DNA of 23,180 nucleotides from a virus: positions 1-23,180 of the IMG/VR virus record IMGVR_UViG_3300012920_000280. The stretch is one strand, 5' to 3'. Under the pieces are notes generated by a model, which was given only the letters and a program-made list of their open reading frames with translations, did no database searches and was not told the origin of the DNA. The translations under genes were made by a program, and so were the position numbers. Within the stretch, counting starts at the first letter, position 1. The number at the start of each line of letters is the position of its first letter. Below are positions 2,496-23,063 of this stretch, piece by piece.

Positions 2496-2496
2496 T

Positions 2497-2775
2497 ATGG
2501 AATATACACAATTAATTTTATCATTAGTAATTATTTTTATCTTACTTTATATAGTATGGAATTTACTTCGTAAGGTAGAAAAATTAGAAGATGGTATAGA
2601 AGAATCTGATAAAGTAATAGAATCAGTAGCGACCTCTGTTGATAGAGCATTAGCTCGAATGAGAGAAGTAGATAGACTGGGTTCATTTGAATCAGATGAC
2701 GAGAGCGGATTTGTGTTTGAAGAAATACAATCTGCATTAGATAAGTTAAACAATGAAATAAACCCTAATGCCTAG
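2497..2775 (+). CDS. Small membrane-anchored protein with coiled coil
   Basis: The 92-residue product begins with a clear transmembrane helix (about 5-23, LILSLVIIFILLYIVWNLL) followed by charged helical sequence likely to form a coiled coil (about 26-58). The C-terminal part holds a compact conserved-looking block, VDRLGSFESDDESGFVFEEI (58-77), which resembles a block seen in small uncharacterised proteins of T4-like phages (recollection, not searched). The predicted topology is one N-terminal anchor with the rest in the cytoplasm, since the flank after the helix is basic (RK). It is not a convincing holin or spanin: one segment only and no lipobox. Its 3' end overlaps the start of the sigma-factor gene by 8 bp, showing translational coupling. 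Function unknown. Confidence 0.8.
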   Translation: MEYTQLILSLVIIFILLYIVWNLLRKVEKLEDGIEESDKVIESVATSVDRALARMREVDRLGSFESDDESGFVFEEIQSALDKLNNEINPNA

Positions 2776-3490
2776 AAAAAGAAGAAAGAGAAGTAAAAGA
2801 TATTTTACTAAAATCACAGAGATTGCTATAAACGCTTATAACAATTGTGATGATATTAAACTAAAGAACAAAATCTATAACAGATTCATTCATTATCCGT
2901 TTGATAAGTTATCGGAAAATGTAATTCACACATACAAAACATATTACTTTGATGTACCATATGAAGATGTAAAGGCAAGTGTAGTTGCGTTTCTGAATGA
3001 AAAGATTCATAAGTTCAATGGTGAAAATGGTAGAGCCTTCTCTTACTTTACAGTAGTTGCAAGAAACTATTTATTCAATGAGAATAATGCAAACTATGCT
3101 AGGATGAAATCAAAAGAGAAAGTATCAGCTATTGATACATCTCGTAATATCGTAAATGAGATTGTAGACCAAAGTAATAAAGAAGCTAAATCTGATTTTA
3201 TAGACCATTACACAAAATATATAGATTATCATTTATATGAATTGTTTTTAAAAGATAGGGATAGAGCTATCGCTGATTCAATAAACGAATTATTTAAGAA
3301 CAGATTAGATTTATATTCTTACAATAAGAAGGCACTCTACATACTTATTAGAGAAAGAACAGGTGTACACACTCAATACATAACTAAAGTAGTTGGTAAA
3401 CTAAAAGGTATTTATGTGGAACTATATACTGAGTATAATAAAAGTGGATACCTTTCTATAAATTATAAATTAAGGGACGGTAATGGATAA
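2768..3490 (+). CDS. gp55: Late sigma factor, T4 gp55-like (sigma-70 region 2)
   Basis: The 240-residue basic protein contains a sigma-70 region 2-like block at about 62-115: YEDVKASVVAFLNEKIHKF, then NGENGRAFSYFTVVARNYLF, corresponding to the helix that binds the core RNA polymerase beta-prime coiled coil and the -10 recognition helix with its aromatic residues. This is how T4 gp55 looks, and gp55 is 185 residues. Residues about 187-222 (KALYILIRERTGVHTQYITK followed by a basic helix) look like a helix-turn-helix, as in sigma region 4, which T4 gp55 lacks. It would replace the host sigma on RNA polymerase and direct late transcription of virion genes. The N-terminus MPRKRRKRSKR is strongly basic. 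It overlaps both neighbours by 8 bp. Region-2 assignment is fairly secure; the region-4-like part is inference. Confidence 0.7.
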   Translation: MPRKRRKRSKRYFTKITEIAINAYNNCDDIKLKNKIYNRFIHYPFDKLSENVIHTYKTYYFDVPYEDVKASVVAFLNEKIHKFNGENGRAFSYFTVVARNYLFNENNANYARMKSKEKVSAIDTSRNIVNEIVDQSNKEAKSDFIDHYTKYIDYHLYELFLKDRDRAIADSINELFKNRLDLYSYNKKALYILIRERTGVHTQYITKVVGKLKGIYVELYTEYNKSGYLSINYKLRDGNG

Positions 3491-5972: not shown

Positions 5973-6413
5973 ATGGCTAAACAGAGAAAAGAATATTTCT
6001 ATAATCCGATAGATTTTGAAAAGGATATTGCCGTTGGGATAAAATTACCATTTGGTAAACCTAATGGATTATTTGCTCAAAGTTTTACAACTGAAGAACA
6101 GGCAATATCTAATTTAAAAAATTTATTATTGACTAGAAAGGGTGAACGATTGTTTCAACCAGAGTTCGGTTCTCAGATTTATGCACTTTTATTTGAACCT
6201 ATTACAGTTGATTTAAAACAAAAATTAGAAAAGGGTATATTAGATGATGTCAATTTCTGGTTACCTTACATAATTATTGATGAGGTAAATGTTTCACCTG
6301 ATGAGGATAGAAACTTCGTTGGTATCAGTTTAAACTTTAGAGTTACAGAACAAGGTGCTAATGAACAAATAATATTATATGTAGATTCCGCAGGAACTGC
6401 AACGATAGAATAG
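5973..6413 (+). CDS. gp25: Baseplate wedge protein, gp25-like (GPW/gp25 family)
   Basis: The 146-residue product fits the gp25/GPW family (T4 gp25 is 132 residues). The diagnostic core is LLLTRKGERLFQPEFGSQIY (51-70): Gly-Glu-Arg followed by Pro-Glu-Phe-Gly, then LLFEP and a helix leading to the IIIDEVNVSPDED strand region. In T4 and in contractile injection systems gp25 binds the gp6 dimer in the inner baseplate and nucleates the sheath through a handshake fold. The N-terminal 20 residues are specific to this protein. The gp6-like gene follows 6 bp downstream, the expected pair. The AGGA inside its stop region serves the next gene. Confidence 0.88.
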   Translation: MAKQRKEYFYNPIDFEKDIAVGIKLPFGKPNGLFAQSFTTEEQAISNLKNLLLTRKGERLFQPEFGSQIYALLFEPITVDLKQKLEKGILDDVNFWLPYIIIDEVNVSPDEDRNFVGISLNFRVTEQGANEQIILYVDSAGTATIE

Positions 6414-6419
6414 GAACGT

Positions 6420-8372
6420 ATGGCAAAGGCAAACAAAACAGATTTAGTCCAAAAGGATGTTAAACTCATTGGAAAGGATTTTGGAGAGTTAAGAAAAAAC
6501 TTAATTGATTTTTCTAAAACTTATTTCCCAAACACCTTTAATGATTTTAACGAATCATCACCAGGTATGATGTTTATTGAAATGGCATCTTATGTAGGTG
6601 ATGTATTATCCTTTTATACAGATACTCAATTAAGAGAATCTCTACTAACTAACGCAGAAGAAAAATCAAACCTTTTCAACTTAGCATCAGTATATGGTTA
6701 CAAACCAAAAAATGTTTGTCCAGCATCTGTAACATTAGATGTGTTTCAGTTAGTACCAGCTAAAGGTAGTGGTGATGATGTACGACCTGATTACGATTAC
6801 GCATTAAAAGTATCTAGTGGTATGGTGGTAGGTTCAGATTCAAATTCCAAAGTAGAATTCAGAACACAATTTGATTTAGATTTTTCTGTATCATCTTCAT
6901 TTAATCCAACTGAAGTTTCAGTATATCAAATTAATGAAAATAATAATGAGCCAATTTACTATCTTTTAAAGAAACAAATTAAAGCTTCAAGTGGTTCAGA
7001 AAGAGAACAAACATTTACATTTGATTCTCCAAAAATTTATGATAAAATAAAAATAACAGATGACCAAATTGTTAAAATAAAATCAATAAAAGATTCAGAT
7101 GATGATTTGTGGACTGAAGTTCCATTCTTAGCACAAGATACTGTATTTGAACAAATAGAAAATAACGAAGATAACTCTACAAAGTATCAACCTTATAGTG
7201 GTGATACACCATTCTTATTAGAATTAAAAAGAGTACCTAAACGATTTATAACTAGATTCGAATCAGAAACAGAATTAGTAGTACAGTTTGGAGCTGGTAT
7301 ATCTGCGAATGCTGATGAAGAAATTATTCCTAATCCTGATAATGTGGGTTCTGCTCTATATCAGAATACAAGTGATATTGACCAAACAATAGACCCATCA
7401 AACTTTTTATATACTAAAACATATGGTGTTGCACCATCTAACACAACACTAACCGTTAAGTATTTAGTTGGTAATGGTGTTGAAGATAATGTACCTGCCA
7501 AAGATTTAACATCTATTGTTAGTAGAATATTTGAAAATGATAACACTATAAATCTAAATCAGAATACTTTAAGATTTATTCAAAACTCATTGGCAGTTAC
7601 TAATCCTGAACCAGCAGTTGGTGGTAGAAGTAAAGAATCTGAAGATGAGATTCGTAACAATGCGATGGCTTATTTTGCGGCTCAAAACAGAACAGTTAGT
7701 AGAGAAGATTACATTATGAGATGTTATGCACTTCCATCACAATTTGGTTCTGTGGCAAAAGCATACTTAGTACAAGATTATCAAATAGAAACTCAATTGA
7801 ATCAAGATAAACCAGAAGTTGGTACAGCAGTTACAGAAAAACCAAATCCATTGGCACTTAATTTATATACTTTAGGGTATGATAAAAATAAGAAAGTAAC
7901 TCAATTAAATCCTGCTACTAAAAACAATTTAAAAAATTACCTTTCATATTACAGAATCTTAACTGATGCTGTTAATATTAAAGATGCATACATCGTAAAC
8001 ATTGCTATTAACTTTGATATTGTAGTTTTACCTGATTACAATTCCAACGAAGTTCTTCTAAAATGTGTTGCGGCTTTAAAAGATTATTTTAATATAGATA
8101 ATTGGAAAGTAAATCAACCAATAAACTTATCACAAATTTATGTTTTATTAGATAAAGTAGATGGAGTACAAACTGTACCAAGACCTAATTCTGATGGTGA
8201 GGGTGGTTTACAAATTAAAAATAAGTTTGATGGAACTTATTCACCAAACAAATATGATATTAAAAAGGCTAGTAGATTGGGTATTATATATCCACCTAAA
8301 GACCCTTCCATATTTGAAGTTAAGTATCCTAATGTAGATATAAGGGGTAAGGTTGTAACACAATCTTTCTAA
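6420..8372 (+). CDS. gp6: Baseplate wedge protein, gp6-like (gpJ superfamily)
   Basis: At 650 residues it is close to T4 gp6 (660). The N-terminal signature FNESSPGMMFIEMASYVGDV (43-62) followed by LSFYTDTQLRESLL is the typical gp6/gpJ start. The second conserved block lies at 401-453: GGRSKESEDEIRNNAM, then AQNRTVSREDYIMRCYALPS and QFGSVAKAYL, the gpJ-like domain. The C-terminal part (about 500-600) has helix-strand repeats consistent with the dimerisation domain. In the assembled particle gp6 forms the ring of the baseplate together with gp25 and gp53. The gene continues directly into an AAGGAG (8371-8376) that serves the next start. No interruption is seen. Confidence 0.92.
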   Translation: MAKANKTDLVQKDVKLIGKDFGELRKNLIDFSKTYFPNTFNDFNESSPGMMFIEMASYVGDVLSFYTDTQLRESLLTNAEEKSNLFNLASVYGYKPKNVCPASVTLDVFQLVPAKGSGDDVRPDYDYALKVSSGMVVGSDSNSKVEFRTQFDLDFSVSSSFNPTEVSVYQINENNNEPIYYLLKKQIKASSGSEREQTFTFDSPKIYDKIKITDDQIVKIKSIKDSDDDLWTEVPFLAQDTVFEQIENNEDNSTKYQPYSGDTPFLLELKRVPKRFITRFESETELVVQFGAGISANADEEIIPNPDNVGSALYQNTSDIDQTIDPSNFLYTKTYGVAPSNTTLTVKYLVGNGVEDNVPAKDLTSIVSRIFENDNTINLNQNTLRFIQNSLAVTNPEPAVGGRSKESEDEIRNNAMAYFAAQNRTVSREDYIMRCYALPSQFGSVAKAYLVQDYQIETQLNQDKPEVGTAVTEKPNPLALNLYTLGYDKNKKVTQLNPATKNNLKNYLSYYRILTDAVNIKDAYIVNIAINFDIVVLPDYNSNEVLLKCVAALKDYFNIDNWKVNQPINLSQIYVLLDKVDGVQTVPRPNSDGEGGLQIKNKFDGTYSPNKYDIKKASRLGIIYPPKDPSIFEVKYPNVDIRGKVVTQSF

Positions 8373-8381
8373 GGAGATAAT

Positions 8382-10412
8382 ATGATTTATAGAATATACG
8401 GACAAAAAGATACTACATTATACGAACAAAATCTTCGTAAAGACCAGAACGTCGGTAAGGATGAAATCCTCGAAGTTACTAAATTTTATGATGAGGATAC
8501 AAATGAGATATGGATTGGTAACAGTAGAATACTTTCTCAGTTTGATTTAACTGAAGTATCTGAATCAGTAGCAAGTGGTGATATTGGTAATAATATTAAA
8601 TACCAACTTAACTTAACTTCAGTACAAGAAAGTGAAGTACAAACAGAATACTCATTAGATGTATTTCCAGTATCTCAAAGTTGGGCAGAAGGTTCAGGTA
8701 AATATATAAACACACCTATAACAACGACTGGATGTAGTTGGACTAAGTTCGATGGTGTAAATACTTGGAACGTTAATTCAGCAAGTATATTTAATGGATT
8801 GACTCAATCAAATGTACCAACCGAAGGTATCTTATTAGCACAACAGTTTACATCAGGTACAGGTTCGGTGTTTTTAACAGAATCTATTAATGATATTGCA
8901 GGTAACTCACCATTTATGTTTGTTCAAAATGAACAATTAATTATTTCAGCATCTAACTTTTCAGGAACAACATTAGTATTTCCATTGTTCTTAGAAACAA
9001 GTAGAACGTATGGAGTACAGTTCCAAGTAGACCCAAATGATTTTACAGATGTACAATTTAGAATAGAAACTCCTGATGGTACAATACAAGGTGAGGAATC
9101 TTACGATAATATGGTAGGTTCTATTACAACAGCATCTACTCAATCATTTGATTTAACAACAACCTCTACAGGTGAACATAAATTAAGATTTACATTCTTT
9201 GATAACGATGGTTCTACATCATCAACTACTGGTAAGTTTGATGAAGTGTTTGTTACAGAAAAAGCAGGTAACACTTTGATATGGGAAACATTCTCAGTTA
9301 ATGAAGGTAAGTTTGTTCAAAGAAATGTTATTAAAAATTCAAATGGTGAAATACCATTTCAAGGTGTAAAGAATTCTAAACTAACATTACAAGCAGATAA
9401 TATTGGTGGAGCTGATGCTGAATACTCAAAGTATTTAGATAAGAATCTACAATACACCGTTACATCTGAATTAAACTTAGGAACATTTCCATCTTTTGGA
9501 TTTAACTTATATAATCCTAATGATTTAAAAATGAACTCTACTCAAGTAACTGGATTACAAAGTGAGTACACATCATCTTTAACTCAATCATTAGTATTTA
9601 CACCACCTCAATCAGGTGATTATAGATTCGCATATACATATTTTGCAAGTGGTTCGACTGGGGCGACTGGTTCGATTGATAATTTTAAAATAGTATATTC
9701 AGGTTCACTTCCTATAGTACAATCAACTGAAGCTTCATTCTTTAAAAATGAAGGTGGTGGTACTTGGTACACATCATCTTTGAGTAATACAAAAGTATCT
9801 CAAACGTTTACTAAATATACATCGGATTTAAATGTAGATGTAACTGATTATGTAAACGATTGGATAAGTGGTTCAAGACCTAACAATGGATTTATAATCA
9901 AACGACCTCTCACACAAGAGAGTGGTTCTGTTAGATACGGTTCATCTCAATTTTTCTCTAACGAAACACATACAATATATGTTCCTACATTAGAAGTTAA
10001 GTGGGATGATTCATCATTTGTAACAGGTTCATTATCTGCGTTAACAGCAGATGATATAATGATATATCCAAAAACATTATTATCAGAATACAAAGAAAGT
10101 TCAAGAGCCAGAATCAGAATCGTAGGTAGAGAAAGATACCCACAAAGAAGTTTTGCGGATTCTAATCCATTTACTACAATTAAATATCTCCCACAGAATA
10201 CTTATTATCAAGTAAGAGATGTTGAAACTAATTTAGTATTGATACCGTATGATACAACTTATACTAAAGTAAGTTGTGATTCGACTGGAAACTATTTTGA
10301 TTTTTGGTTCAATACTTTACAACCTGAAAGATTTTACCAATTTGAGTTCAGAGTTGATAGAGGTGGAAACAAACAATACTTCGATGGAAACGTATTTAAA
10401 GTGGTTAGATAA
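8382..10412 (+). CDS. Virion protein: DNRLRE/CBM96-like fold split by two jelly-roll-like modules
   Basis: The 676-residue product lies where T4 has gp7 and gp8. Residues 1-135 resemble the first half of a DNRLRE (CBM96) domain, including DVFPVSQSWAEGSGKY (93-108) and the aromatic CSWTKFDGVNTW (118-129). Residues about 478-541 resemble its second half: LNVDVTDYVNDWISGSRPNN, then GFIIKRPL and the VPTLEVKWDD end. Between them lie two similar beta-rich modules (about 187-293 and 335-440) sharing GE/DH/YKLRFTFF-type strands and a GSTxxTG turn, like carbohydrate-binding jelly rolls. Residues 560-676 are a further beta domain. A strong AAGGAG sits 5 bp before the ATG. A role as a peripheral baseplate or host-contact protein is inferred; no sequence match to T4 gp7 or gp8 is seen. 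Confidence 0.72.
   Translation: MIYRIYGQKDTTLYEQNLRKDQNVGKDEILEVTKFYDEDTNEIWIGNSRILSQFDLTEVSESVASGDIGNNIKYQLNLTSVQESEVQTEYSLDVFPVSQSWAEGSGKYINTPITTTGCSWTKFDGVNTWNVNSASIFNGLTQSNVPTEGILLAQQFTSGTGSVFLTESINDIAGNSPFMFVQNEQLIISASNFSGTTLVFPLFLETSRTYGVQFQVDPNDFTDVQFRIETPDGTIQGEESYDNMVGSITTASTQSFDLTTTSTGEHKLRFTFFDNDGSTSSTTGKFDEVFVTEKAGNTLIWETFSVNEGKFVQRNVIKNSNGEIPFQGVKNSKLTLQADNIGGADAEYSKYLDKNLQYTVTSELNLGTFPSFGFNLYNPNDLKMNSTQVTGLQSEYTSSLTQSLVFTPPQSGDYRFAYTYFASGSTGATGSIDNFKIVYSGSLPIVQSTEASFFKNEGGGTWYTSSLSNTKVSQTFTKYTSDLNVDVTDYVNDWISGSRPNNGFIIKRPLTQESGSVRYGSSQFFSNETHTIYVPTLEVKWDDSSFVTGSLSALTADDIMIYPKTLLSEYKESSRARIRIVGRERYPQRSFADSNPFTTIKYLPQNTYYQVRDVETNLVLIPYDTTYTKVSCDSTGNYFDFWFNTLQPERFYQFEFRVDRGGNKQYFDGNVFKVVR
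8940..9701 (+). repeat. Tandem jelly-roll-like modules inside the 676-aa protein
   Basis: Module 1 (8940-9260) and module 2 (9384-9701) align at protein level: GEHKLRFTFFDNDGST with GDYRFAYTYFASGSTG, and preceding strands TYGVQFQV with QYTVTSEL. Each ends in a DEVFV or DNFKIV strand. This points to an old internal duplication placed within a DNRLRE-like domain. Confidence 0.5.
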
Positions 10413-12340
10413 TGGCAGAAAAAAAATTAGATAAAGAAATAGATTTTAGAGAAGTAAGAAGAAATACTGCCAGTCAGATAATTTCTTATACACTTCCTAA
10501 AGTTGCTCCTGCAGGTTCACCATCCCAATATGGTAGAGTTCGTATTCCTGCAATCAATACTACGTTAAATAAAATAGAGTTTAATAGAGTACTTGATAAT
10601 GATATTGAACAATTTACAAAAACTATAAATGAGTTTAATATTGAAACAAAAAAATTAAATGAAGTATTTCTACCTGAAGAAGATATTGAAGGAACATTAG
10701 TAGAAGAACCATTAAACTTTAATGGGGAGCTAGTAAGAGTAGGTTCAGGACCATCCGCCATATTTTATATAGAAGATAATAAGTTTTACACATTTGCAGA
10801 AGGACATGGATACCTATGGCATATTATGGCTGAAAGGTTGGGTAAACCAATGGGATTCCGTATGAATGATGAGTACGATTATGCCGACCAATATGCATTA
10901 CAAAAACCAGACCCGAATGATTCTGATAATAAAATAAAATATGAAATTGATAGAGGGTGTAATCAGTATTCAGTATATAACGATGTATCATATTCAAGAA
11001 CCTCAGTTGCATATTTAGAAACAAACAAATATGCGGGTGAGTTAACTAAAGAAAAAATATTAGGTTTGGCAGCAGATTCAACATTATATGTTAAGTTTGT
11101 TAACAAAACAGATTCAAATAGATTTAAAAAAATCACAGTTACAGGACCAGATTCTACTCCGATAGAATTCAATAGACAAAAAGATAAACCTATAAGAGAA
11201 ACATTTACAACTGTTGATTCTAACTTAGATGTTGGGGTATATAAGAATCCGGGTGATGGAGATGGTGTTCTTTACAAATTTAGATTAAAGTTTAAAGGTG
11301 GTGAAGTAAAAATGATAAATCCAGTACCAGAAAGTGCAAACGCATGGAACGGAGAATCATTTAGAAAGTTTGTAATTCCAGCAAGTGAATTAAATGAAAA
11401 ACTTTGGAAAATTGAAATAGAAGAAGATGTCGCATTTTCTCCATTCTATGCACCAGGTACAACTACAGGAGAGAAAAGATGGTTAACATCACAAGGTGGT
11501 AAGATTGGACAAGGTGCTGAACTATATAGATGGACTGGTACTGAATGGGTAGAAGATACTAACAATACCGCCGTACCATACACAGTACTTGGACAAACTT
11601 ACAAATGGAATGGTAGTTTCTATGAAACATATATAGCTCCATTACCAGGTGAACCAGGTGGGCCACCACTACCACCAAACACTACGGCAGAAATAGATTA
11701 TCAAATGATGGATGGTAACTTAGAAGTACTTTATGGTGGTGACCCTCGTATGCGGGGTGGTGATAAGTTGGTAGATGATTTATGGGAAGCGGCACAAGAT
11801 ACACTTACTCAAGCCAATATTGCGGCTGGGTATCAACGAAAAGAACCGAAAACAAAATGGACTCAAAAAATCCAAAATAGAAGTTCAGGTGATGATGAAT
11901 CTAAATTATTAGATGTACTTACTCAAACTGCGGATGATTTAATACAAGGTGGTACTGGATATTTAGCTGGTAATATATTTGCAAGTGTTAATACAAACAC
12001 CAGAGCTACATCAGCTGATGTTAATGTTACATATGATGAATTGTTAGATAACTATAATTTACTTACTCAAAAAAATATGTTAATACAAACCAATGCAAAT
12101 GGTGGTAGACGTGATTTAGAACAAGCTTGGGAATTGGGAGATGGTTCATCTACTTTTGGTGGTGGTAGAGTTTCAGGTTCTGAAAAAAGAAAGAACAGAG
12201 ATAACAGAAGTCGTAAAGTTACTGTTTGGAAATCGTGTATTAAAAAACGTGCTAGTGGTAGAGAAGAAAAAGATTTATTAAGAGTGTTAGGTCATACGGC
12301 AAGAGCTATGATTCGAACTGGAAGTGGTAGGATACAATAA
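10412..12340 (+). CDS. Large baseplate/tail structural protein with duplicated C-terminal helix module
   Basis: I do not recognise the 642-residue product. Its start overlaps the previous stop as TAATG and its own stop overlaps the next ATG the same way, so it is translationally coupled. Residues 1-80 are polar and helical; residues 110-345 look like mixed alpha/beta with VRVGSGPSAIFYIEDNKFYT early on; residues 371-423 hold two RWTGTEW / KWNGSFYET motifs resembling small tail-fibre beta units and a Pro/Gly tract (PLPGEPGGPPLPP). The last 200 residues are helical with Gly-rich linkers and contain two aligned copies of a 34-residue module (483-516 and 606-639). The second copy and the C-terminus are strongly basic. 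Location between the gp6 pair and the 1814-aa protein suggests an outer baseplate component. Confidence 0.7.
   Translation: MAEKKLDKEIDFREVRRNTASQIISYTLPKVAPAGSPSQYGRVRIPAINTTLNKIEFNRVLDNDIEQFTKTINEFNIETKKLNEVFLPEEDIEGTLVEEPLNFNGELVRVGSGPSAIFYIEDNKFYTFAEGHGYLWHIMAERLGKPMGFRMNDEYDYADQYALQKPDPNDSDNKIKYEIDRGCNQYSVYNDVSYSRTSVAYLETNKYAGELTKEKILGLAADSTLYVKFVNKTDSNRFKKITVTGPDSTPIEFNRQKDKPIRETFTTVDSNLDVGVYKNPGDGDGVLYKFRLKFKGGEVKMINPVPESANAWNGESFRKFVIPASELNEKLWKIEIEEDVAFSPFYAPGTTTGEKRWLTSQGGKIGQGAELYRWTGTEWVEDTNNTAVPYTVLGQTYKWNGSFYETYIAPLPGEPGGPPLPPNTTAEIDYQMMDGNLEVLYGGDPRMRGGDKLVDDLWEAAQDTLTQANIAAGYQRKEPKTKWTQKIQNRSSGDDESKLLDVLTQTADDLIQGGTGYLAGNIFASVNTNTRATSADVNVTYDELLDNYNLLTQKNMLIQTNANGGRRDLEQAWELGDGSSTFGGGRVSGSEKRKNRDNRSRKVTVWKSCIKKRASGREEKDLLRVLGHTARAMIRTGSGRIQ
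11858..11959 (+). repeat. Helix module copy 1 (residues 483-516 of the 642-aa protein)
   Basis: First copy of a 34-residue unit with pattern W-x3-I-x2-R-x-S-G-x2-E-x2-LL-x-VL-x2-TA-x3-I-x4-G. It is acidic (GDDESK, ADD). It aligns without gaps to the copy at 12227-12328, offset 123 residues, with 14 of 34 positions identical by my reading. Confidence 0.7.
12227..12328 (+). repeat. Helix module copy 2 (residues 606-639 of the 642-aa protein)
   Basis: Second copy of the unit. Trp606, Ile610, Arg613, Ser615-Gly616, Leu622-Leu623, Val625-Leu626, Thr629-Ala630, Ile634 and Gly639 match copy 1. Acidic residues of copy 1 are replaced by Arg/Lys/His here, so the two copies have opposite charge while keeping the hydrophobic pattern. 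Confidence 0.7.
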
Positions 12341-15300
12341 TGGCTATGGATATATACGATAACGGAACAAATATACTTCTATCGAAATCACCGATAGATG
12401 AGCCAGATTTATACGCTTCAACTGATTTAGAACGTATAACGGAAGAACCTATTGCCCTAACTGAAGCCGAAATCAAAGGAGTTGAAAATAAAGATTTTGA
12501 AAGAAAATCTAAACAAGAGTTTCACATTTATTCAGGTGAAAATTTATTAGGTTCTAATTTTACTGAAATCAAATATGAAATAAATAATGATGCGGATAAT
12601 CTATATGATTACGATATTGTTTTAAAACCTGAAGATGATGTAAGAAAATCAAATATATCCAAAGGTAGTTTTTCGGTTGTTTATAACTTTTTAACTCAGA
12701 AAACAGATAAATTAAAATTAGAAAATATTTCAGCTGATGGTACAGAACTTCAGTTGATTATTGATGTAGAAAAAGGAATAGTAGATTCTAAAGAAGGATT
12801 GTTAGAGATATTTGATGATATTAATGCTGGTTCAAATGCTCAATATGTTTTAAATTTTGGTGATAATAATTTAGCCGCAATTACAAATATAGATTTTACT
12901 TTAAATGAAAGAGTTGGTTTTATAAATGATACGATACCATTTCCTACATCAACATTCCAAAATAAAAGAACAAGATTTTATCCTATATCAAATCAAGAAG
13001 GTTATTGGGCAGAAGTATTTATTGATGAAGAAGTAGTAGATTCGATACCAGCGGGTGCTACAATAATGGCAGATGTCGAAGATGCTGTACCAGAAACCAA
13101 TACAACACCATCAAATATTGTATTAGAAAATGAAGTTCCAAAACCACAAAGTACAGGTGAATCACCTGTAATGGTTTCTGCTCCTGCACCAGACCCAACT
13201 ACAAACCCATTACAAGTTCAAGCTCCATCTGAAACGAGAACGGAAGTACCATATACATTTAATTTTCAAGGGTTAACAGACCCAAAGAATGCTGAGTTAT
13301 TAAATCCAAATTCAAGACCAATACCTGAAACAACGGTAACAACAAGAACAACTACAGGTGAAAATGTTATTGTTAGTGGTAGGGATTTAGGATTAGCTCC
13401 AACACCAACAAGAGGCCAAAGTATTAGTACATCTGTTCAAAGTGGACAATCTAATCAATTGGCCCAATCAACAATGCCTACGACTGGTACATCAACATTT
13501 AAAGATAAGTTAGGTAGTAGATTATTGTTAGGTCAAAGTATTACAGTAAACCCAAGATACAGAACGACTGGTAGAGGTGCTAAGTTTAGTTTAGGATTCA
13601 ATGAAAATGATATATTAGAATATCAAATAGATAGAGATGTTACAGGTGAACCAGTTTATTACATATATGATAACGATGATGATACACTTGGGTTTATCTT
13701 ACGACCAGGTATAGATTATTTTAGATTACTAAATGGTAAACCTACTTTTAGTGAAGTACAATATTATAATCCTTTATTCAAAGATGAAAGTAATTTTAAA
13801 ACAATTACTGTAAAATTATACAAACCATTAAGGGGTGATTTACAAACAAAACCTGCCAGTATTGATAGGTTAGTAAGAAATTCTTATGTTGAAAAATTAT
13901 TAGTATATCCATTTACTAAAGTAAAAGTAAAAGAAAACTTCTCAGAACCTAACTTTAAAATTGATATGGGTACTTACGGAAAATCTGTAGGAACTGATTT
14001 AAAAAGTTGGAATGATTTATTAGATGCTAACTTAACCACATCACAACAAATTGTAGATAAGTACATTAGCTCATCTTTTACAGATAATATAAATGTGAAC
14101 TATTCAGACTTCTCTGAGTTTGTACATTACTCATCTGCTGTTGAAAGAGTAAATAACTTTAAATACAAAGTTGAATTAATTGAAAGTTTTGATAGTAGAA
14201 TTAAAACATTACAATCGGTAAGTGGTTCTGAAGCCTTAACAAACATATCTCAATCTATTACGAGAAAGAATAATGTTGTTAGTGGTATGGATGGATGGGA
14301 ACGTTGGATGTATAACGAACCATCTTCATCATTATATACACATTATAGTTCATCTGCGTTTACGTTTAAACCTTGGCCTAAGGTAAGTTCTCAGCCAGTT
14401 CAACTTATATCAGTAACCTCATCTGATAGTATAAATTATTATAACGGATTAATTGAATCGGCAAGTTATTTCGATTCTGTAAACGATGCTAGATTAACAA
14501 AATCATTACCAGCATCTATAGCTGAGGACCCGTTGAACTCAGATTACTTACTGTTCGTTGATATGATTGGACATCACTTTGATATTACATGGTCTTACAT
14601 TAAGAAACTAACCTCTATACATACTAGAGAAGAACATCCATTTGATGGTATGCCAAACGAACTTCTTTATGATGTTGCAAAATCATTAGGTTGGAAACTA
14701 TCACATGGACAAGATAGAGCTGAATTATGGAATTATGCTTTAGGTACAGATAAATTTGGTAATACTTTACAATCTGGTTCATTAGCATCTAAACCATTTG
14801 AACAATACACACATGAAGTATGGAGAAGAATTGTAAACAATATCCCATACCTTCTAAAAACAAAAGGTTCAGCGAGAGCAGTTAAAGCATTAATTTCTAC
14901 ATATGGTATTCCTCAAACATTCTTATCAATCAGAGAATATGGTGGGCCTGCGATAGAAGAAGAAAGACATATTTGGGAACATGAAAGATTTGTGTACCAT
15001 TTAAGATTTGATGGTGATAACTATATGCAAGTTCCTTTTGATAAGGTGAATGATATAGACCCAATAACTTATTTGAATAGAGACCCAAATCCTATTGATA
15101 CTATTGAATTACAAGTTCAACAAGACCACAATAGAGATACCGCTATCTTAAATAAAGATAGTAACTTTGCGGTAATATATGAATCTATATCAACTGCACA
15201 AACAAATAAAAAAGGTAACATTCACTTTTATTTAAGTGGTAGTAGTGGTTATAAATCAGCATCTATTAGTAATATAAATGTGTTTGATAAACAGATGGGT

Positions 15301-17784
15301 ACGTTAATAGTTCAACGACAAACATCTGTAGATGATATTACACAAGATAATGAGTACCGATTGATGTACCGTAGACACAGAAAAGATGAAATATCAGTTT
15401 CACATTCTGCAAGTATATTCATTACAGGTTCTACGGAATCATCATACAATGCCGCGTGGACTGGTAGTGGTACATTAAGTATTGGTAAAACTTTACCAAC
15501 AACAAACACACCATCTCTATGGGCAAATGCACAATATCTAAGTGGTTCAATACAAGAATTAAGATATTGGGCAAATCCATTAAAAGATATTGTTATTGAT
15601 GAACATACTTTATCAAGAGAATCTTATCATGGTAATGCTGAAACATCATCTTATTTTGATTTGAAGTTTAGATTCTTACCTGATTCAAGATTAAAGAATG
15701 TACAATCAACAGATTCACAACCATCACAACATCCTAACCAAAGAATATCAACCGTATTAAGTGGTGGGATATTATCAGCCTCATTATATAACTTTGAATC
15801 AGATGATTTAAGAGGTGTAACTGATGAGTACTATACAAAAGTACCATCTGCGGGAGCTAACAACATTATGAATAATAAAATTAGGGTAGAACCTAATAGG
15901 TTAAGAGGAATGTTAGATGTTGACCAAAGAAAAGAAAAATCTAAGTTTGATACTGCTCCAAACGATTCTAATCAATTGGGTGTTTATCTATCTGCAACAA
16001 AAATGTTTAATGAAGATATATACAACCATACAGGATACTTCGATATAGATGATTACATTGGAGACCCAGACCAGAGAGAAGGGTTTACAGAACAAAACGA
16101 ACAATTAGATTATTTAAGACGACAAGTATTCAAAAAGTACAGTTCTAAAAATTTAATAAATACTGTTATTGATATTCTTGCAAGATATGATTTCTCTGTA
16201 TTTGAACAGATTAGACAAACTGTTCCTGCTAGGGTTGATTACAACTCAGGTATTTTAATTGAACCACATATCTTAGAAAGACCAAAGGCCAAATCTAAAG
16301 TTAAGGTTACTAAAACAGAACCTATGTATCAGGTTACAATTGAGCCAATAGATAAAGACCCACAGATGTTTATTACTCCATTGGAAACTACAATGAGTGC
16401 AAGACCAAAAGTACAAGATTGGGAATACCCAACATATGAAACTGAAATAAGTGGTGGTGCTGCTCCTAACATTAGTATGGAGTATCCAACTTATAATACA
16501 ACAATTAGTGGTACTGCATCACCGAATGTACTTATGACGTATCCAACGTATGATAACTTTTCAAGTCCAACTATTCCTATGTTGACTGGAAGTTTTGAAG
16601 CCGCATATTTAACGTATAATACGAAGTTAGATTTAACTGCATCACAACAATTAGAAGGTGAGTATCCAACATATGATACTAAATTAGTTTTAACAGAATC
16701 ATTCTCTCAAACGGCAGAATACCCAACATATGATACAAAGTTAGATTTAACAGAATCGTTTAATCAAACGGCGGAATACCCAACGTACAATAGTAGTATT
16801 GTTATTGATGAACAATTTAGAAGTGCTTCTGCGGAAACGTTACAATATACACAATTACTAAATGTGTTTGAAACACCAAAAGATGTTACTGGATTGTATT
16901 ATTTATATAACGCAACTTTACCACAAATAACACAATCAATTGTAGTAACCAAAGAAGATTTAGAAAACAAAGGTTTGATTACTGCAAAATTACCATATCA
17001 GGCTTCAAGATATAAATTTGATATATTGATTCCATCTCAATCAGGTAATGTAGGATTTGGGGTTGGTTGGATTACAGGTTCGAATGGTAGTTGGAATTAC
17101 AATCCATTAGGTACAACTATAACTGATAAACGACCAGCAAAGTATGCGAGAAGTATAAATTATTTCTACAGTTCATCATTATCTGCTTCATTGGGATTAT
17201 CTTACTCATCCTCATTCTCACCAGCGAGAGTATCAACTGATGAGTTACCATTGGCAATAGATAATTTAAGATACTTAGGTTGTAAGATGACATCTGATTC
17301 TTTAACTACTAATTCACCAGATACACCTGATGGTAAACCTGTTATTGAAATATTTCAAGCAGACCCGAATGTACTTATTAATACATCTCAAACCGCAGAA
17401 GAAGGTAATTTAGATGTAGATACTCAAACAGGTATTGCTACTGTAAATATTGATGATTTAAAAATCTCTGAAGAAATAAGGTATCAAAGAGAATTAGAAT
17501 ATAAAGAAGAAGTTAAACAGTTCCGTAGAGAAATACAAAGATTAACTTCTATAGAAACGGCTAGAAGAAATGAATTTGATTTAAGATTACAAAACTCTGA
17601 AGATATAAGTAACAGAGAATCGGCAAGACAAGATGAGTTTGATATTGTAAATAATGCTGAGGTAGTTGAAAAAGAATTAAAACAAAAAGAAGTTGAAAAA
17701 GAAAGAGAGACGGAAAAAGAAGAAGTTAAGGGTGAAGATTTAGATGGATTTAAATTACCACCACAAAAAAGGAGAGGTAGATAA
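12340..17784 (+). CDS. Giant mosaic tail/baseplate protein with LamG-like domain and YPTY repeats
   Basis: The 1814-residue product is the largest in the window. Residues 40-150 form a beta-rich domain (EFHIYSGENLLGSN, then VVYNFL and SADGTELQL). Residues about 230-400 are a Pro/Thr/Ser linker. Residues 745-860 are helical and look conserved: HFDITWSYIKKLTSIHTREE, then LLYDVAKSLGW, then NNIPYLLKTKGSARAVKALI and STYGIP, a motif I associate with large structural proteins of marine T4-like phages. Residues 885-1085 look like a concanavalin/LamG-type sandwich (YHLRFDGDNYMQVPFD, ending in SGSIQELRYW). Residues 1362-1497 are seven YPTY repeats. Residues 1708-1800 are a charged coiled coil with a two-fold 21-residue repeat; the end is basic (PPQKRRGR). 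A role in peripheral baseplate or host contact is inferred. It is coupled by TAATG at both ends. Confidence 0.78.
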   Translation: MAMDIYDNGTNILLSKSPIDEPDLYASTDLERITEEPIALTEAEIKGVENKDFERKSKQEFHIYSGENLLGSNFTEIKYEINNDADNLYDYDIVLKPEDDVRKSNISKGSFSVVYNFLTQKTDKLKLENISADGTELQLIIDVEKGIVDSKEGLLEIFDDINAGSNAQYVLNFGDNNLAAITNIDFTLNERVGFINDTIPFPTSTFQNKRTRFYPISNQEGYWAEVFIDEEVVDSIPAGATIMADVEDAVPETNTTPSNIVLENEVPKPQSTGESPVMVSAPAPDPTTNPLQVQAPSETRTEVPYTFNFQGLTDPKNAELLNPNSRPIPETTVTTRTTTGENVIVSGRDLGLAPTPTRGQSISTSVQSGQSNQLAQSTMPTTGTSTFKDKLGSRLLLGQSITVNPRYRTTGRGAKFSLGFNENDILEYQIDRDVTGEPVYYIYDNDDDTLGFILRPGIDYFRLLNGKPTFSEVQYYNPLFKDESNFKTITVKLYKPLRGDLQTKPASIDRLVRNSYVEKLLVYPFTKVKVKENFSEPNFKIDMGTYGKSVGTDLKSWNDLLDANLTTSQQIVDKYISSSFTDNINVNYSDFSEFVHYSSAVERVNNFKYKVELIESFDSRIKTLQSVSGSEALTNISQSITRKNNVVSGMDGWERWMYNEPSSSLYTHYSSSAFTFKPWPKVSSQPVQLISVTSSDSINYYNGLIESASYFDSVNDARLTKSLPASIAEDPLNSDYLLFVDMIGHHFDITWSYIKKLTSIHTREEHPFDGMPNELLYDVAKSLGWKLSHGQDRAELWNYALGTDKFGNTLQSGSLASKPFEQYTHEVWRRIVNNIPYLLKTKGSARAVKALISTYGIPQTFLSIREYGGPAIEEERHIWEHERFVYHLRFDGDNYMQVPFDKVNDIDPITYLNRDPNPIDTIELQVQQDHNRDTAILNKDSNFAVIYESISTAQTNKKGNIHFYLSGSSGYKSASISNINVFDKQMGTLIVQRQTSVDDITQDNEYRLMYRRHRKDEISVSHSASIFITGSTESSYNAAWTGSGTLSIGKTLPTTNTPSLWANAQYLSGSIQELRYWANPLKDIVIDEHTLSRESYHGNAETSSYFDLKFRFLPDSRLKNVQSTDSQPSQHPNQRISTVLSGGILSASLYNFESDDLRGVTDEYYTKVPSAGANNIMNNKIRVEPNRLRGMLDVDQRKEKSKFDTAPNDSNQLGVYLSATKMFNEDIYNHTGYFDIDDYIGDPDQREGFTEQNEQLDYLRRQVFKKYSSKNLINTVIDILARYDFSVFEQIRQTVPARVDYNSGILIEPHILERPKAKSKVKVTKTEPMYQVTIEPIDKDPQMFITPLETTMSARPKVQDWEYPTYETEISGGAAPNISMEYPTYNTTISGTASPNVLMTYPTYDNFSSPTIPMLTGSFEAAYLTYNTKLDLTASQQLEGEYPTYDTKLVLTESFSQTAEYPTYDTKLDLTESFNQTAEYPTYNSSIVIDEQFRSASAETLQYTQLLNVFETPKDVTGLYYLYNATLPQITQSIVVTKEDLENKGLITAKLPYQASRYKFDILIPSQSGNVGFGVGWITGSNGSWNYNPLGTTITDKRPAKYARSINYFYSSSLSASLGLSYSSSFSPARVSTDELPLAIDNLRYLGCKMTSDSLTTNSPDTPDGKPVIEIFQADPNVLINTSQTAEEGNLDVDTQTGIATVNIDDLKISEEIRYQRELEYKEEVKQFRREIQRLTSIETARRNEFDLRLQNSEDISNRESARQDEFDIVNNAEVVEKELKQKEVEKERETEKEEVKGEDLDGFKLPPQKRRGR
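16423..16830 (+). repeat. Seven tandem ~19-residue YPTY repeats
   Basis: Within the 1814-aa protein, residues 1362-1497 consist of units beginning xYPTY: EYPTYETEIS, EYPTYNTTIS, TYPTYDNFSS, AYLTYNTKLD, EYPTYDTKLV, EYPTYDTKLD, EYPTYNSSIV. Six units are 19 residues and the third is 22. Units 5 and 6 are nearly identical, a sign of recent duplication. Alternating Thr and hydrophobic residues suggest a repeated beta-hairpin or beta-spiral shaft. Confidence 0.9.
17554..17643 (+). repeat. Two-fold 21-residue repeat in the C-terminal coiled coil
   Basis: ETARRNEFD (1739-1747) recurs as ESARQDEFD (1760-1768) in the 1814-aa protein. An offset of 21 residues equals three heptads, which fits a coiled coil. 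Confidence 0.6.
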
Positions 17785-19262
17785 TGTCAAAAACAGAAAA
17801 ACCAAGTAGAGGTAGAGAAGAAACTCCAAGAGGTAGAGGTAGAGGTAGAACTAGACCACAACCACCTGTACCACCACGTAATCCTGCTCCACCTAAAACG
17901 GAAGAAACTGTAGTGAATCCACCAGAGGTTTCACCTACACCACCACCGCCTCCACCAAAACCTAAGAGTAATCCTAAACCTGCGATTGGTGAAACATCAC
18001 CAAAACCATCAGGTAAAGGACAGGGTGAGACTGGTGTATCTAAGAACGCCCCTACAAAACCTACAGTATCAACGAGAGGTAGTGATGAATTACCAAAAGA
18101 TGATTTTGTTGATGATGTAAAGGTTAATGAGGTTATTCCACCTAAACCCACAAAAGGAGATGATGTAGTAGTAGATGATATTTCTGAAGTAACTAAAGAT
18201 TTATTAAAAGATTCTTTAAAAGATAATGATAAACCTCTTACACCTGAGAAACCAAAATCAGATGAAGATGAGATTGAAGATATTATTAAAACTATAGATA
18301 AAGAAGTAGATACACCTGCCAACGTAGGTGGTAGTGGTAAAGTTGATGATAGTGATACCAAATCTGAAGATGAACTTATTGATAAAATTACAAAACAGGA
18401 AGAAGAAGTAAATAAAGAAGTACCTGTTGATGTAGTAAAAGCATCTGAATTAGAAGATGAGGAAGAACGAATTCGTTTAGAACAAGAAGAACAAAAACGT
18501 AGAGAGTTAGAAAAAGAAAGAAAAGAAGCAAGAGAAGAAGCTGTAAAAGATGAACAACAAAGAAGAACATTGTTTGATAACGATATAGCTCAAAAACGTA
18601 AAGAATTCAGATTGTTAATGGATGAAAAATATCCTGAGTTTAGTAAATCTAATACACAAGGTAATAAAAAACCAAGTGAATCAGAATTAAGATTAAAAGA
18701 AGAACAACGAATTAAAGATAGAGAAGAAATAGGAAAAGAAAAACAAAAAATTAAATTAGATAAAAAACGTTTACAAAAAAGAAAAGTAGATAGATTAAAA
18801 AAAGAACGTACCAGAAAAACTGAAGAACAAAACTTTAAAGTTAACAGAATGAGAAAATCTGAAGTTCAAACTTTTTTTGAAGGTGATGTACTTTTAGAAC
18901 AAAAAGAAAAAACAGAACGTAATCCTGAAGTGAGAGGTGAAACTGAAGTTCAAATTAAACGTAGAGAAATCGCAAGATTTGAAAAACAGTTAGGTAGAAA
19001 GATAGTACCTCATAGAGATATAGTAGAAAGTGAAGAATCAGATTTTGATAGAAATGCTAATACTAACTCTAAAGAAGATATACTTATTAAAGTACCAAAA
19101 GATAATAAACCTCTAAAGGATTACAGAAAATTAAATAGGTTAGTAAATATAAGAAAAGGTTTAAATAAAAAGAAACCCAAAGATATTGATTTTATAAAGG
19201 CAAGAAAACCATCTCCTGAGTTAAATGATGTACCTTTGTTTAGAAGAAAACGTAGAAATTAA
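17784..19262 (+). CDS. Low-complexity, largely disordered phage protein
   Basis: I do not recognise the 492-residue product. It has four compositional zones: residues 1-95 are Arg/Gly- and Pro-rich (RGRGRGRTRPQPPVPP and a run of six prolines at 53-58); residues 100-225 are acidic with VDD/DDI motifs; residues 225-400 are a dense Glu/Lys/Arg helix likely to form a long coiled coil; residues 400-492 are basic, ending in PLFRRKRRN. No globular enzyme fold is evident. The start overlaps the preceding stop as TAATG, with AAGGAG at 17769-17774. The preceding protein ends in a similar charged coiled coil and RRGR, so this gene may be a continuation or scaffold partner of it. The plus-strand frame is preferred over the antisense frame because the overlap and Shine-Dalgarno fit. 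Confidence 0.75.
   Translation: MSKTEKPSRGREETPRGRGRGRTRPQPPVPPRNPAPPKTEETVVNPPEVSPTPPPPPPKPKSNPKPAIGETSPKPSGKGQGETGVSKNAPTKPTVSTRGSDELPKDDFVDDVKVNEVIPPKPTKGDDVVVDDISEVTKDLLKDSLKDNDKPLTPEKPKSDEDEIEDIIKTIDKEVDTPANVGGSGKVDDSDTKSEDELIDKITKQEEEVNKEVPVDVVKASELEDEEERIRLEQEEQKRRELEKERKEAREEAVKDEQQRRTLFDNDIAQKRKEFRLLMDEKYPEFSKSNTQGNKKPSESELRLKEEQRIKDREEIGKEKQKIKLDKKRLQKRKVDRLKKERTRKTEEQNFKVNRMRKSEVQTFFEGDVLLEQKEKTERNPEVRGETEVQIKRREIARFEKQLGRKIVPHRDIVESEESDFDRNANTNSKEDILIKVPKDNKPLKDYRKLNRLVNIRKGLNKKKPKDIDFIKARKPSPELNDVPLFRRKRRN
17831..17848 (+). repeat. Hexamer repeat (AGGTAG)x3
   Basis: Three perfect AGGTAG hexamers encode the RGRGRG tract of the 492-aa protein. Single related units lie at 17775-17780 (before the start codon) and near 17810. 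In-frame slippage would change the number of Arg-Gly pairs without a frameshift. Confidence 0.7.
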
Positions 19263-21188: not shown

Positions 21189-23063
21189 ATGGCAGAAGCA
21201 CTAAAACCAATAAATGGCGGTGGACTACAGCTCTATCCGTTTAACGCTCACAAAAGGTGGACGGTAACGGATTTAGATTATAGAAGTGATTTATACCAAA
21301 CATCCATTATAAAGGGAATCTCTCCATTACATAACGAAAAAGTTCCACTATCTCAATCAGTTGATGGTGAAAATGTTGCTGATGATTCTCAATTAGATAA
21401 TACTCTTTCTAATTCTACTACTTACTTAGCTAAGAAGGAACAGAAAATTGTATGGTCAGGTCTAAACCAAATGTTTTTTAAACATAGACCTAACAATGAA
21501 AGAGATTTATTTACTTCTGCATCCATATTCTCTATTCCTCACAATAGATTGGGTGATGGTATAAAACCAGGAACAGTTATAATTCAAGATAAATCACAAG
21601 CTGATTTAGTAGAATACGTTAATATTATTGATAGAAAGATTGATGAGTTTCATGGATACCTAATTGATACTGATTTAAATACAGGTTCTTATGTTCCGTT
21701 TGGTGATTTGATGGGATATTGGGGATTTAACGATGAAGTAGTTCCACGTTCATCATCATTTGATAATAAGATAGAAGATAGAAGTGGTTATCAAAATCAT
21801 GCAGTTGGTAGAGAGTTAGCATACCAAAGAGGAATTAAAACATCTGGTACTGCATCAGTTCAATCGGGTACTAAAGTTGGATTAAATGGTGTAAACTCTT
21901 ATATTAAGATAGATGATAAAAAAAGATATTCACCTGTAAAAGGAAATGATTATTCACTATCTTTGTGGGTAGAGGCTCCAATATCACAATCTGATGTTAC
22001 ATCTGATTACAATTGGATTATAAACAAAAACGGAACTATTAATGAAGAATATACTGATTTAGGTGGTACTCCAAAACGTAGACAACGAAATATAGATTCA
22101 CCTATATTCCCATATGAGTTAAAAATATATAATCAAAACACATTTAGTGCTAGTGGAAAAATAGTAGCATCTCTATCTGATGGATTACGAAATGTAGAAG
22201 TTACATCATCCACACAAATCAACGATGGTAATCAACACCACATTTGTTTTAACAAAACAGGTTCTCTTTTAGAACTATGGGTAGATGGTACAAAAGAGGC
22301 CTCATCTTCTATAAAATTAAAAGGAGATGTTTGGAATGAACATGATATTCTATTAGGTTCAAAATACTTATCAGATTTAGAAAGATATGGATTTGCAATA
22401 AAACGAGATAGAAAAGAAATCACATCTTTTAACTCACTAACAGGTTCGTTGGATGAATTTAGATACTATAGAAAAGGATTAACATCAACACAAATTAAAG
22501 GATTATCATCTAACGACTGGAATACAGGTTCCGCATATCAAGAAGATATTGTTGGTGAAGTTTTCTACAATCATGGAATGATAATAGTTTCAGACCCTCG
22601 TCCAAAATACAAAAATGTATTAGTTGGTAACGGTAATTGGGATTATGATTCTGAAAGATTAGGATTTAAAACGAAGTGGAAATCAACAAAAAAATTATAT
22701 GAAACATCATTAATGTGTGAGGTTGGTGCTAGTGAATTTAATATTAGTACAAACCCATCATTAAGAAAAAATAATGACATCAGAGAACAGTTCTTAAAAC
22801 CATTTATAACTGGTTCTGATTTCTCTCCTTACTTTACAACAATTGGATTGTATAACAAACAAGGAGATTTACTTGCAATCGGTAAATTAGCATCTGCTAT
22901 TCAAAATAGAAATGATGTTGATATTACTGTTAAAGTAAGATTAGATTTGGATGGCCCTTTTGGTACTCCATTAACAGGTTCATTATTACCTGAATCTGAA
23001 AACAATATTAAGTTACAAAAAAGACCCGATGGTAAGTTTGTTTGGAACGCACAAGGGTTTTAA
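21189..23063 (+). CDS. LamG-domain virion protein, candidate receptor-binding protein
   Basis: The 624-residue product starts with a polar domain (GGGLQLYPFNAHKRWTVTDL, 11-30). Residues about 174-440 are a LamG/concanavalin-type jelly roll: LMGYWGFNDE (174-183), DRSGYQNHAVG (197-207), VGLNGVNSYIKI (230-241), YSLSLWV (255-261), HICFNKTGSLLELWVDGT (351-368), GSLDEFRYYRKGLTSTQI (419-436). This order is the classic LamG-3 pattern. Residues 455-587 are the module shared with the previous protein, and the last 35 residues are an extra tail. LamG folds bind glycans, so this is the best candidate here for host-surface contact, though a purely structural role is possible. The ATG at 21189 is used because an upstream ATG at 21179 is in another frame. 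Confidence 0.82.
   Translation: MAEALKPINGGGLQLYPFNAHKRWTVTDLDYRSDLYQTSIIKGISPLHNEKVPLSQSVDGENVADDSQLDNTLSNSTTYLAKKEQKIVWSGLNQMFFKHRPNNERDLFTSASIFSIPHNRLGDGIKPGTVIIQDKSQADLVEYVNIIDRKIDEFHGYLIDTDLNTGSYVPFGDLMGYWGFNDEVVPRSSSFDNKIEDRSGYQNHAVGRELAYQRGIKTSGTASVQSGTKVGLNGVNSYIKIDDKKRYSPVKGNDYSLSLWVEAPISQSDVTSDYNWIINKNGTINEEYTDLGGTPKRRQRNIDSPIFPYELKIYNQNTFSASGKIVASLSDGLRNVEVTSSTQINDGNQHHICFNKTGSLLELWVDGTKEASSSIKLKGDVWNEHDILLGSKYLSDLERYGFAIKRDRKEITSFNSLTGSLDEFRYYRKGLTSTQIKGLSSNDWNTGSAYQEDIVGEVFYNHGMIIVSDPRPKYKNVLVGNGNWDYDSERLGFKTKWKSTKKLYETSLMCEVGASEFNISTNPSLRKNNDIREQFLKPFITGSDFSPYFTTIGLYNKQGDLLAIGKLASAIQNRNDVDITVKVRLDLDGPFGTPLTGSLLPESENNIKLQKRPDGKFVWNAQGF
22551..22949 (+). repeat. Shared C-terminal module, copy in the LamG protein
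   Basis: Residues 455-587 of the 624-aa protein match the C-terminal module of the 358-aa protein at the positions listed there. Here it is followed by about 37 more residues, so the module is not fully terminal in this copy. Confidence 0.8.

Follow-up and report, generated by a model that had tools for sequence, protein, structure and literature searches.

The subject of this analysis is a giant structural protein, P0001 (1814 aa), encoded at 12340..17784 on the + strand by an open reading frame (ORF) in the gp25/gp6-type baseplate gene module of an uncultured phage; the window referred to below is the whole 23,180-nucleotide (nt) stretch of IMG/VR record IMGVR_UViG_3300012920_000280. The protein contains a tandem repeat array whose length changes between relatives by about whole units, and which together with the domain behind it shows a replacement-like divergence as a block. 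The interpretation that we favour, with a probability of roughly 0.55, is that the array acts as a length-variable spacer in a baseplate-module protein and presents an exchangeable, probably host-facing module; that the conserved part is anchored in the baseplate, that the array has an extended shape, that the host is contacted and that array length affects infection are properties that we infer.

In this arrangement the conserved part of the protein, up to a LERPK motif at about residue 1316, would sit in the baseplate and the array would set the distance to the following domain in steps of one unit of 17-20 residues; the array together with the first part of that domain would form an exchangeable distal module, probably facing the host. 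Unit number would shift through in-frame gain or loss of units, by unequal recombination or slippage between them, and whole modules would be exchanged among related phages through homologous recombination in the conserved sequence on either side.

A tandem array of variable unit number

The array and its immediate surroundings are as follows (L-numbers denote the IMG/VR contigs of relatives).

15922..16287, + strand: conserved block ahead of the array, last part DYNSGILIEPHILERPK (LERP codon at 16273), from alignments of relatives
about 16318-16422, + strand: degenerate unit-like stretch upstream of unit 1 (estimate), in which MFITPLETTMS resembles FITPLNTSIS of L004
16423..16479, + strand: repeat unit 1, EYPTYETEISGGAAPNISM
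16480..16536, + strand: repeat unit 2, EYPTYNTTISGTASPNVLM, 13 of 19 residues in common with unit 1
16537..16602, + strand: repeat unit 3, 22 residues, beginning TYPTYDNFSSPTIPM
16603..16659, + strand: repeat unit 4, AYLTYNTKLDLTASQQLEG, which opens a block with 3, 4 or 5 units in five parsed relatives
16660..16716, + strand: repeat unit 5, EYPTYDTKLVLTESFSQTA
16717..16773, + strand: repeat unit 6, EYPTYDTKLDLTESFNQTA
16774..16830, + strand: repeat unit 7, EYPTYNSSIVIDEQFRSAS
about 16831-16917, + strand: degenerate repeat-like stretch downstream of unit 7 (estimate, from length and alignment)
16918..17409, + strand: domain following the array, from alignments and divergence profiles

Seven units of roughly 19 residues lie exactly at 16423-16830, where a first-pass annotation had placed them; their starts are spaced by 19, 19, 22, 19, 19 and 19 residues, and self-similarity is at its maximum at lag 19, a level that none of 2000 shuffled versions of this 210-residue stretch attains. 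The same annotation had read two nearly identical units as a sign of recent copying, and units 5 and 6 do agree at 17 of 19 residues, with 82% identity in DNA; because the remaining 20 unit pairs are just 39-65% identical in DNA, it is only this one copying event that looks recent. Tandem Repeats Finder reports a 57-nt period at 16666-16784 only, with 2.1 copies. A counterpart of unit 3 (YPTYDNF) is found in the long-array segments L001-L004, L032-L034 and L036. By length the window would hold about 11 units in total, those beyond the seven being an estimate from length.

Relatives were collected with the whole protein (25 loci), the array region (75) and the following domain (71), on largely overlapping contigs. 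Length was compared in 36 distinct segments, the window included, running from the LERP motif to a conserved tryptophan, 18 rows without an anchor being excluded. The segments measure 74 residues (2 segments), 107 (1), 124-130 (21), 145-148 (3) and 240-242 (5), the longest being 262 (2), 266 (the window) and 276 (1). Lengths differ by roughly 19 residues or by multiples of that, and the natural series runs from one to about twelve units; a constant repeat number in all relatives, which had been named as one half of the outcome that would speak against a variable spacer, is excluded by this series. On a tree of the 36 members built from the core, with unit number taken as rounded length, nine or more changes in unit number are required; 500 shuffles never gave fewer than 11 (mean 13.6), so unit number is partly inherited.

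The predicted variation by about whole units is also seen between close strains. Over 1.8 kb ahead of the array, L037 and L041 are 97-100% identical per 200-nt interval (one interval 92%); within it, L037 carries an additional 18-residue unit and there are some minor gaps (63 gap columns in the opening 200 nt, 81 overall). L043 and L050, 96-100% identical over 1.8 kb before the array, differ by 60 nt within it. L166 and L172 are 99.9% identical upstream of the array, 99.1% across the domain behind it and 98.9% further downstream, yet the array alignment has three gaps, all in frame, of 60, 60 and 51 nt, the last being an 18-residue unit minus one codon; L166 and L171 are 60 nt apart at 97.9% upstream identity. 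A separate case is that of L083 and L084-L086, where an in-frame length difference of 12 residues in the array stretch is not a repeat unit; L083 and L084 are otherwise 97-100% identical.

Part of the variation could be an artefact of short-read assembly, in which repeats are collapsed or joined and strain variants mixed: the counted relatives are IMG/VR contigs, not isolates, and the L009 and L038 contigs stop inside the variable block or shortly past it, as happens at strain branches. Such an artefact is nevertheless very improbable, given that the differences are in frame, that L011/L025 and L037/L041 regain high identity on the far side, and that the pairs L166/L168, L172/L173, L012/L019 and L005/L024 each reproduce their own array in separate contigs.

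In a periodicity test of 14 arrays the best lags were 17-19, and in 11 of them 0 of 2000 shuffles scored as high (8 in L041, 24 in L011 and 20 in L064); for L172, L171 and L158 the lags were 20, 20 and 19, with 0 of 1000 shuffles as high. Compared with shuffles, alternation of residues with period two gave z values of 3.0 in the window, 2.9 in L001 and 2.5 in both L024 and L158; it was weak in L103 (1.8), L037 (1.5), L012 (0.8) and L172 (0.4), the last of which scores for helical periodicity instead (z 2.5). The alternation in some of these arrays is consistent with a beta-rich unit. The spacer interpretation of the first-pass annotation can be retained in part: its recent copying and its variable number hold, its beta-rich unit is compatible with the residue pattern, and host contact and the tuning of reach are putative.

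In a distant clade, which includes L166 and L172 and in which the following domain is 34-35% identical, another unit of about 20 residues, e.g. FASASLPVIGDNLIEGKWQS, is found at the same site, and it therefore seems that length rather than sequence is kept. It is possible, though we put it forward tentatively, that the site is a dedicated length dial at which unrelated arrays of 17-20 residue units have been built repeatedly, with unit number and tip changing independently and reach being matched to the depth of the host surface.

The block of units 4-7 was parsed by eye in the five nearest relatives; it has 3 units in L003, L004 and L034, 4 in L001 and the window, and 5 in L033. Its last unit shows a mean identity of 0.48 across the six genomes as against 0.17-0.33 with its own neighbours, and its first unit one of 0.44 between genomes. 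Neighbouring units of this block in the window are 0.47, 0.89 and 0.37 identical, as against 0.32-0.47 for the matching L001 units, which hints at homogenisation inside the array. Inner units are alike within the window, L001, L003 and L034 (0.49-0.63), but such likeness is not apparent in L004 (0.26) or L033 (0.33).

These patterns would also suit units that themselves bind a host glycan or dock a virion protein, their number then setting avidity or the number of partners and not reach. The regular tyrosine/threonine positions are retained in the units, different genomes have a conserved last unit in the block, the inner units are alike in the arrays just named but not in L004 or L033, and the neighbouring genes include a second LamG protein (21189-23063). 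Against this, the unrelated unit of the distant clade, with its similar length and its unit-wise change, is more easily explained if length matters than if a specific ligand is bound; the lack of a Pfam family, the marginal PHROG matches and the lack of a phage-record match (see below) lend binding no support, though binding would be compatible with all of them. We regard binding by the units as unlikely.

Sequence divergence in and after the array

The first part of the following domain diverges jointly with the array, and its last part, YLGCKMTSDSLTTNSPDTPDGKPVIE, is strongly conserved. L009 and L024 are 100% identical over about 11 kb, then 96-98%, then 81-84% at the array. L011 and L025 are 95-100% identical over 1 kb ahead of the array; identity falls to 72-90% within it and is back at 94-100% for at least 1 kb beyond. 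The same two contigs are also about 60% identical over 400 nt near L011 nt 1300-1700, with 79-99% around this point.

Close pairs were compared in 300-nt intervals around LERP, a drop in identity of at least 8 points being scored as a dip; 16 of 19 pairs were informative. In the first 300 nt after LERP 9 of the 16 pairs dip, and in the next 300 nt 7 of 14; in each of the nine intervals (2.7 kb) before LERP at most 2 of 16 do so. The nine dipping pairs represent five clusters, and L064/L067, which dips in the next interval, adds a sixth. In about six clusters of close relatives the array and following domain are far more diverged than the preceding sequence, as if swapped in. Because the array and following domain differ between phages that are otherwise near-identical, host contact and tuning of reach are indirectly supported.

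In four pairs synonymous divergence is 0.03-0.09 in the core and rises to 0.26-0.44 in the array; three other pairs show a smaller rise (0.13-0.20 to 0.33-0.36), the core and array values for L166/L172 are 0.002 and 0.13, and in the controls L032/L034 (0.168 to 0.163) and L166/L171 there is hardly any change. Since it is synonymous divergence that rises in the array, imported sequence is indicated rather than selection on single sites. The ratio of nonsynonymous to synonymous differences (pN/pS) in seven diverged pairs is 0.27-0.55 in the array and 0.05-0.18 in the core.

It could be argued that the site is simply a mutation-prone, tolerant linker, the unit number of which drifts neutrally by slippage and the divergence of which reflects frequent recombination between conserved flanks. 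Tandem units in frame make slippage easy, the array pN/pS is above that of the core yet below one, length is stable in 21 of the 36 segments, and the 12-residue difference between L083 and L084 is in frame without being a repeat. However, the residue alternation in 4 of 8 arrays and the conserved unit period speak against a free loop, as does the recurrence of 17-20 residue periods with unrelated sequences, and a neutral linker seems to us a doubtful explanation.

Several observations weigh against a spacer carrying an exchangeable module. Much of the family shows little change in length, 21 of the 36 segments being about equal, and in 16 further relatives, including the two named cultured phages, Microcystis phage Mel-JY01 and Flavobacterium phage immuto, periodicity was not beyond chance at the 1% level (lowest were L146 with 17 of 500 shuffles as high and L090 with 24 of 500); the array is therefore a feature of some clades and not of the whole family. 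Seven of the 16 close pairs do not dip in the first 300 nt, and L005/L024, L032/L034, L032/L036, L034/L036, L045/L054 and L046/L056 dip in neither interval. In L046/L059 and L056/L059 identity is still low past the array (79-87% in the tail and downstream), and the contigs of L009 and L043 end soon after the array, so that a full return to identity is not visible there. The array is also not the only place at which close relatives diverge: about 4.2 kb before LERP 8 of 14 informative pairs dip, and 4 of 13 in the next interval, at a site that maps approximately to 12070-12670 (end of the ORF at 10412-12340 and start of the giant ORF; gene boundaries vary among relatives). Further, L005 and L024 are 100% identical throughout their overlap except at nt 2200-3000 of the giant ORF, where the LamG-like region and the sequence flanking it show 1-16% difference per 200 nt; from this pair, that region and its flank would be a second exchangeable block of the giant gene. 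The array pN/pS of the seven pairs, being below one, gives no sign of diversifying selection as such. Finally, two AlphaFold runs (residues 560-1690 with 15 sequences and residues 1262-1692 with 37 sequences) did not give a usable model of the array, with a mean predicted local distance difference test score (pLDDT) of 36 and 38 and values below 50 in the array; since both failed there, no conclusion on its fold is drawn.

Related phage proteins and significance

Tandem repeats have been described in other phage tail proteins. Phages of the crAss-like group carry BACON tandem repeats in tail-associated proteins, with sequential duplication, horizontal domain transfer in some lineages and a proposed role in host binding (PMC6949934). 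The present array resembles these as a set of tandem repeats in a tail-associated phage protein, but a whole Ig-like domain is repeated there (PMC6949934), whereas here a unit of 17-20 residues without a clear family match is repeated in a larger baseplate-module protein. The tail fibre of EfV12-phi1 acquires in-frame tandem duplications, differing in number, ahead of a domain predicted to bind carbohydrate, and the authors of that study suggest that these answer host resistance (PMC6365445); in that case a 1.8-kb segment of a tail fibre was duplicated during laboratory coevolution (PMC6365445), whereas the present units are 51-60 nt and belong to natural phages. The T7-like tail fibres of pelagiphages in metaviromic islands have a conserved N-terminal part, dissimilar protein-specific repeats and a hypervariable C-terminal recognition region (PMC3909814); conserved part, repeats and variable region come in the same order as here. 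These T7-type fibres are of another class of protein, however, and the available part of that source does not describe a change in repeat number between near-identical phages (PMC3909814).

Within the baseplate, the wedge protein GP075 of Pseudomonas phage K8 can gain a 7-residue in-frame tandem duplication in 1-3 extra copies, which was linked to extended host range (PMC9887876). GP075 is gp6-like and has a single duplicated peptide, no standing array being described in the part of the paper available (PMC9887876), while the giant protein has a standing array. Duplication of a small domain of T4 gp37 expands host range, to go by a title (Tetart et al. 1996, cited in PMC9887876); gp37 is a long tail fibre adhesin, unlike the baseplate-module protein considered here. 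Among the literature matches listed there was no treatment of the giant protein or its array, although these matches were mostly without subscription papers and so are weak evidence of absence. New with respect to known tail repeats are the short unit, the protein in which it lies, the natural series of one to about twelve units and the occupation of this site by unrelated units in a second clade.

If the spacer interpretation is true, the array would give these phages a simple genetic route to alter the reach of a host-facing part separately from what is bound, and this change of reach would lie in a protein that is not annotated as an adhesin. The natural series from 1 to about 12 units makes a link between length and infection testable, and the array marks an exchangeable module in an unnamed protein family.

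Fold, family and gene neighbourhood

The remaining features of the giant protein and its nearest assigned neighbours are these.

5973-6413: gp25-like neighbour
6420-8372: gp6-like baseplate wedge neighbour
14980..15579, + strand: LamG-like (concanavalin-type) domain, about aa 881-1080, from the local AlphaFold model and Foldseek
17416..17784, + strand: Lys/Glu-rich charged C-terminal tail, from sequence

In the first AlphaFold model (residues 560-1690) the largest confident stretch is the LamG-like region, best at about aa 920-1080, and another is a helical stretch at about aa 606-659. A Foldseek search of this model against the PDB returned LamG domains of neurexin, agrin and thrombospondin with E values of 1e-4 to 1e-3; the predicted LamG/concanavalin-like fold of aa 881-1080 is thereby supported, in a model that is poor elsewhere (mean pLDDT 36), and matches to viral spikes and toxins were disregarded because most of it is poor. 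The first-pass annotation had set the array between a LamG-like region and the C-terminal domains. The LamG-like region is borne out by the model and Foldseek, but it does not adjoin the array, about 240 residues lying between them.

No Pfam family was found in P0001 at E 0.1, nor in 15 of 15 members of the family alignment, and a BACON domain was rejected, there being no Pfam match of any kind in either at that threshold. The P2 gpI/T4 gp7 class was likewise not supported by sequence: all 15 members are without a Pfam family, and hhalign gave 0.5% for P2 gpI and 0.1% for T4 gp7, values obtained with single-sequence templates and a shallow profile (effective number of sequences 1.65) that leave room for a distant relation. 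The giant gene is separated from the gp6-like gene by two ORFs, and in P2 and T4 the gpI/gp7 gene directly follows gp6/J. Because the class is not supported by sequence, P0001 is called only a baseplate-module protein.

Against immuto protein QQO92079.1, hhalign gave 99.8% over about 290 residues, and tblastn against Mel-JY01 gave 32% identity within residues 491-1327; by these alignments QQO92079.1 and the Mel-JY01 protein are homologous to the core of the giant protein, in a family that has no name. Mel-JY01 carries a block related to the conserved one ahead of the array. Six records were matched by tblastn, and in all five that are annotated the protein is hypothetical. The giant gene has no near relative in phage records, and the array as query had no match there at E 10, a search from which near records may be left out. 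Against PHROG there were only marginal matches, to families of unknown function: phrog_30736 covers units 4-6 at E 0.038, and the best other match is at 0.011. One PDB chain matched by the profile of residues 560-1690 at E 0.71 was taken as chance, and 73 matches from a pattern scan of genome contigs include no relative.

The gene order in the window is gp25-like, gp6-like, two ORFs and then the giant ORF, and in immuto a giant hypothetical protein likewise comes after gp25, gp6 and two ORFs. Directly 3' of the giant ORF, 17784-19262 encodes a low-complexity Lys/Glu/Pro-rich protein with no family match at E 0.1; the C-terminal tail of the giant ORF is similarly charged. The LamG protein at 21189-23063 (Laminin_G_3, E 2.6e-7), another of the module, is from its domain match a putative host-contact protein. 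Upstream of the tail genes lies a ClpP-like protease at 704-1348, which also matches head maturation protease families, beside a GroES-like co-chaperonin at 1352-1648. Within the giant protein itself, aa 201-420 (12940-13599) form a Pro/Thr/Ser-rich linker whose length ranges from 0 to about 220 residues across relatives.

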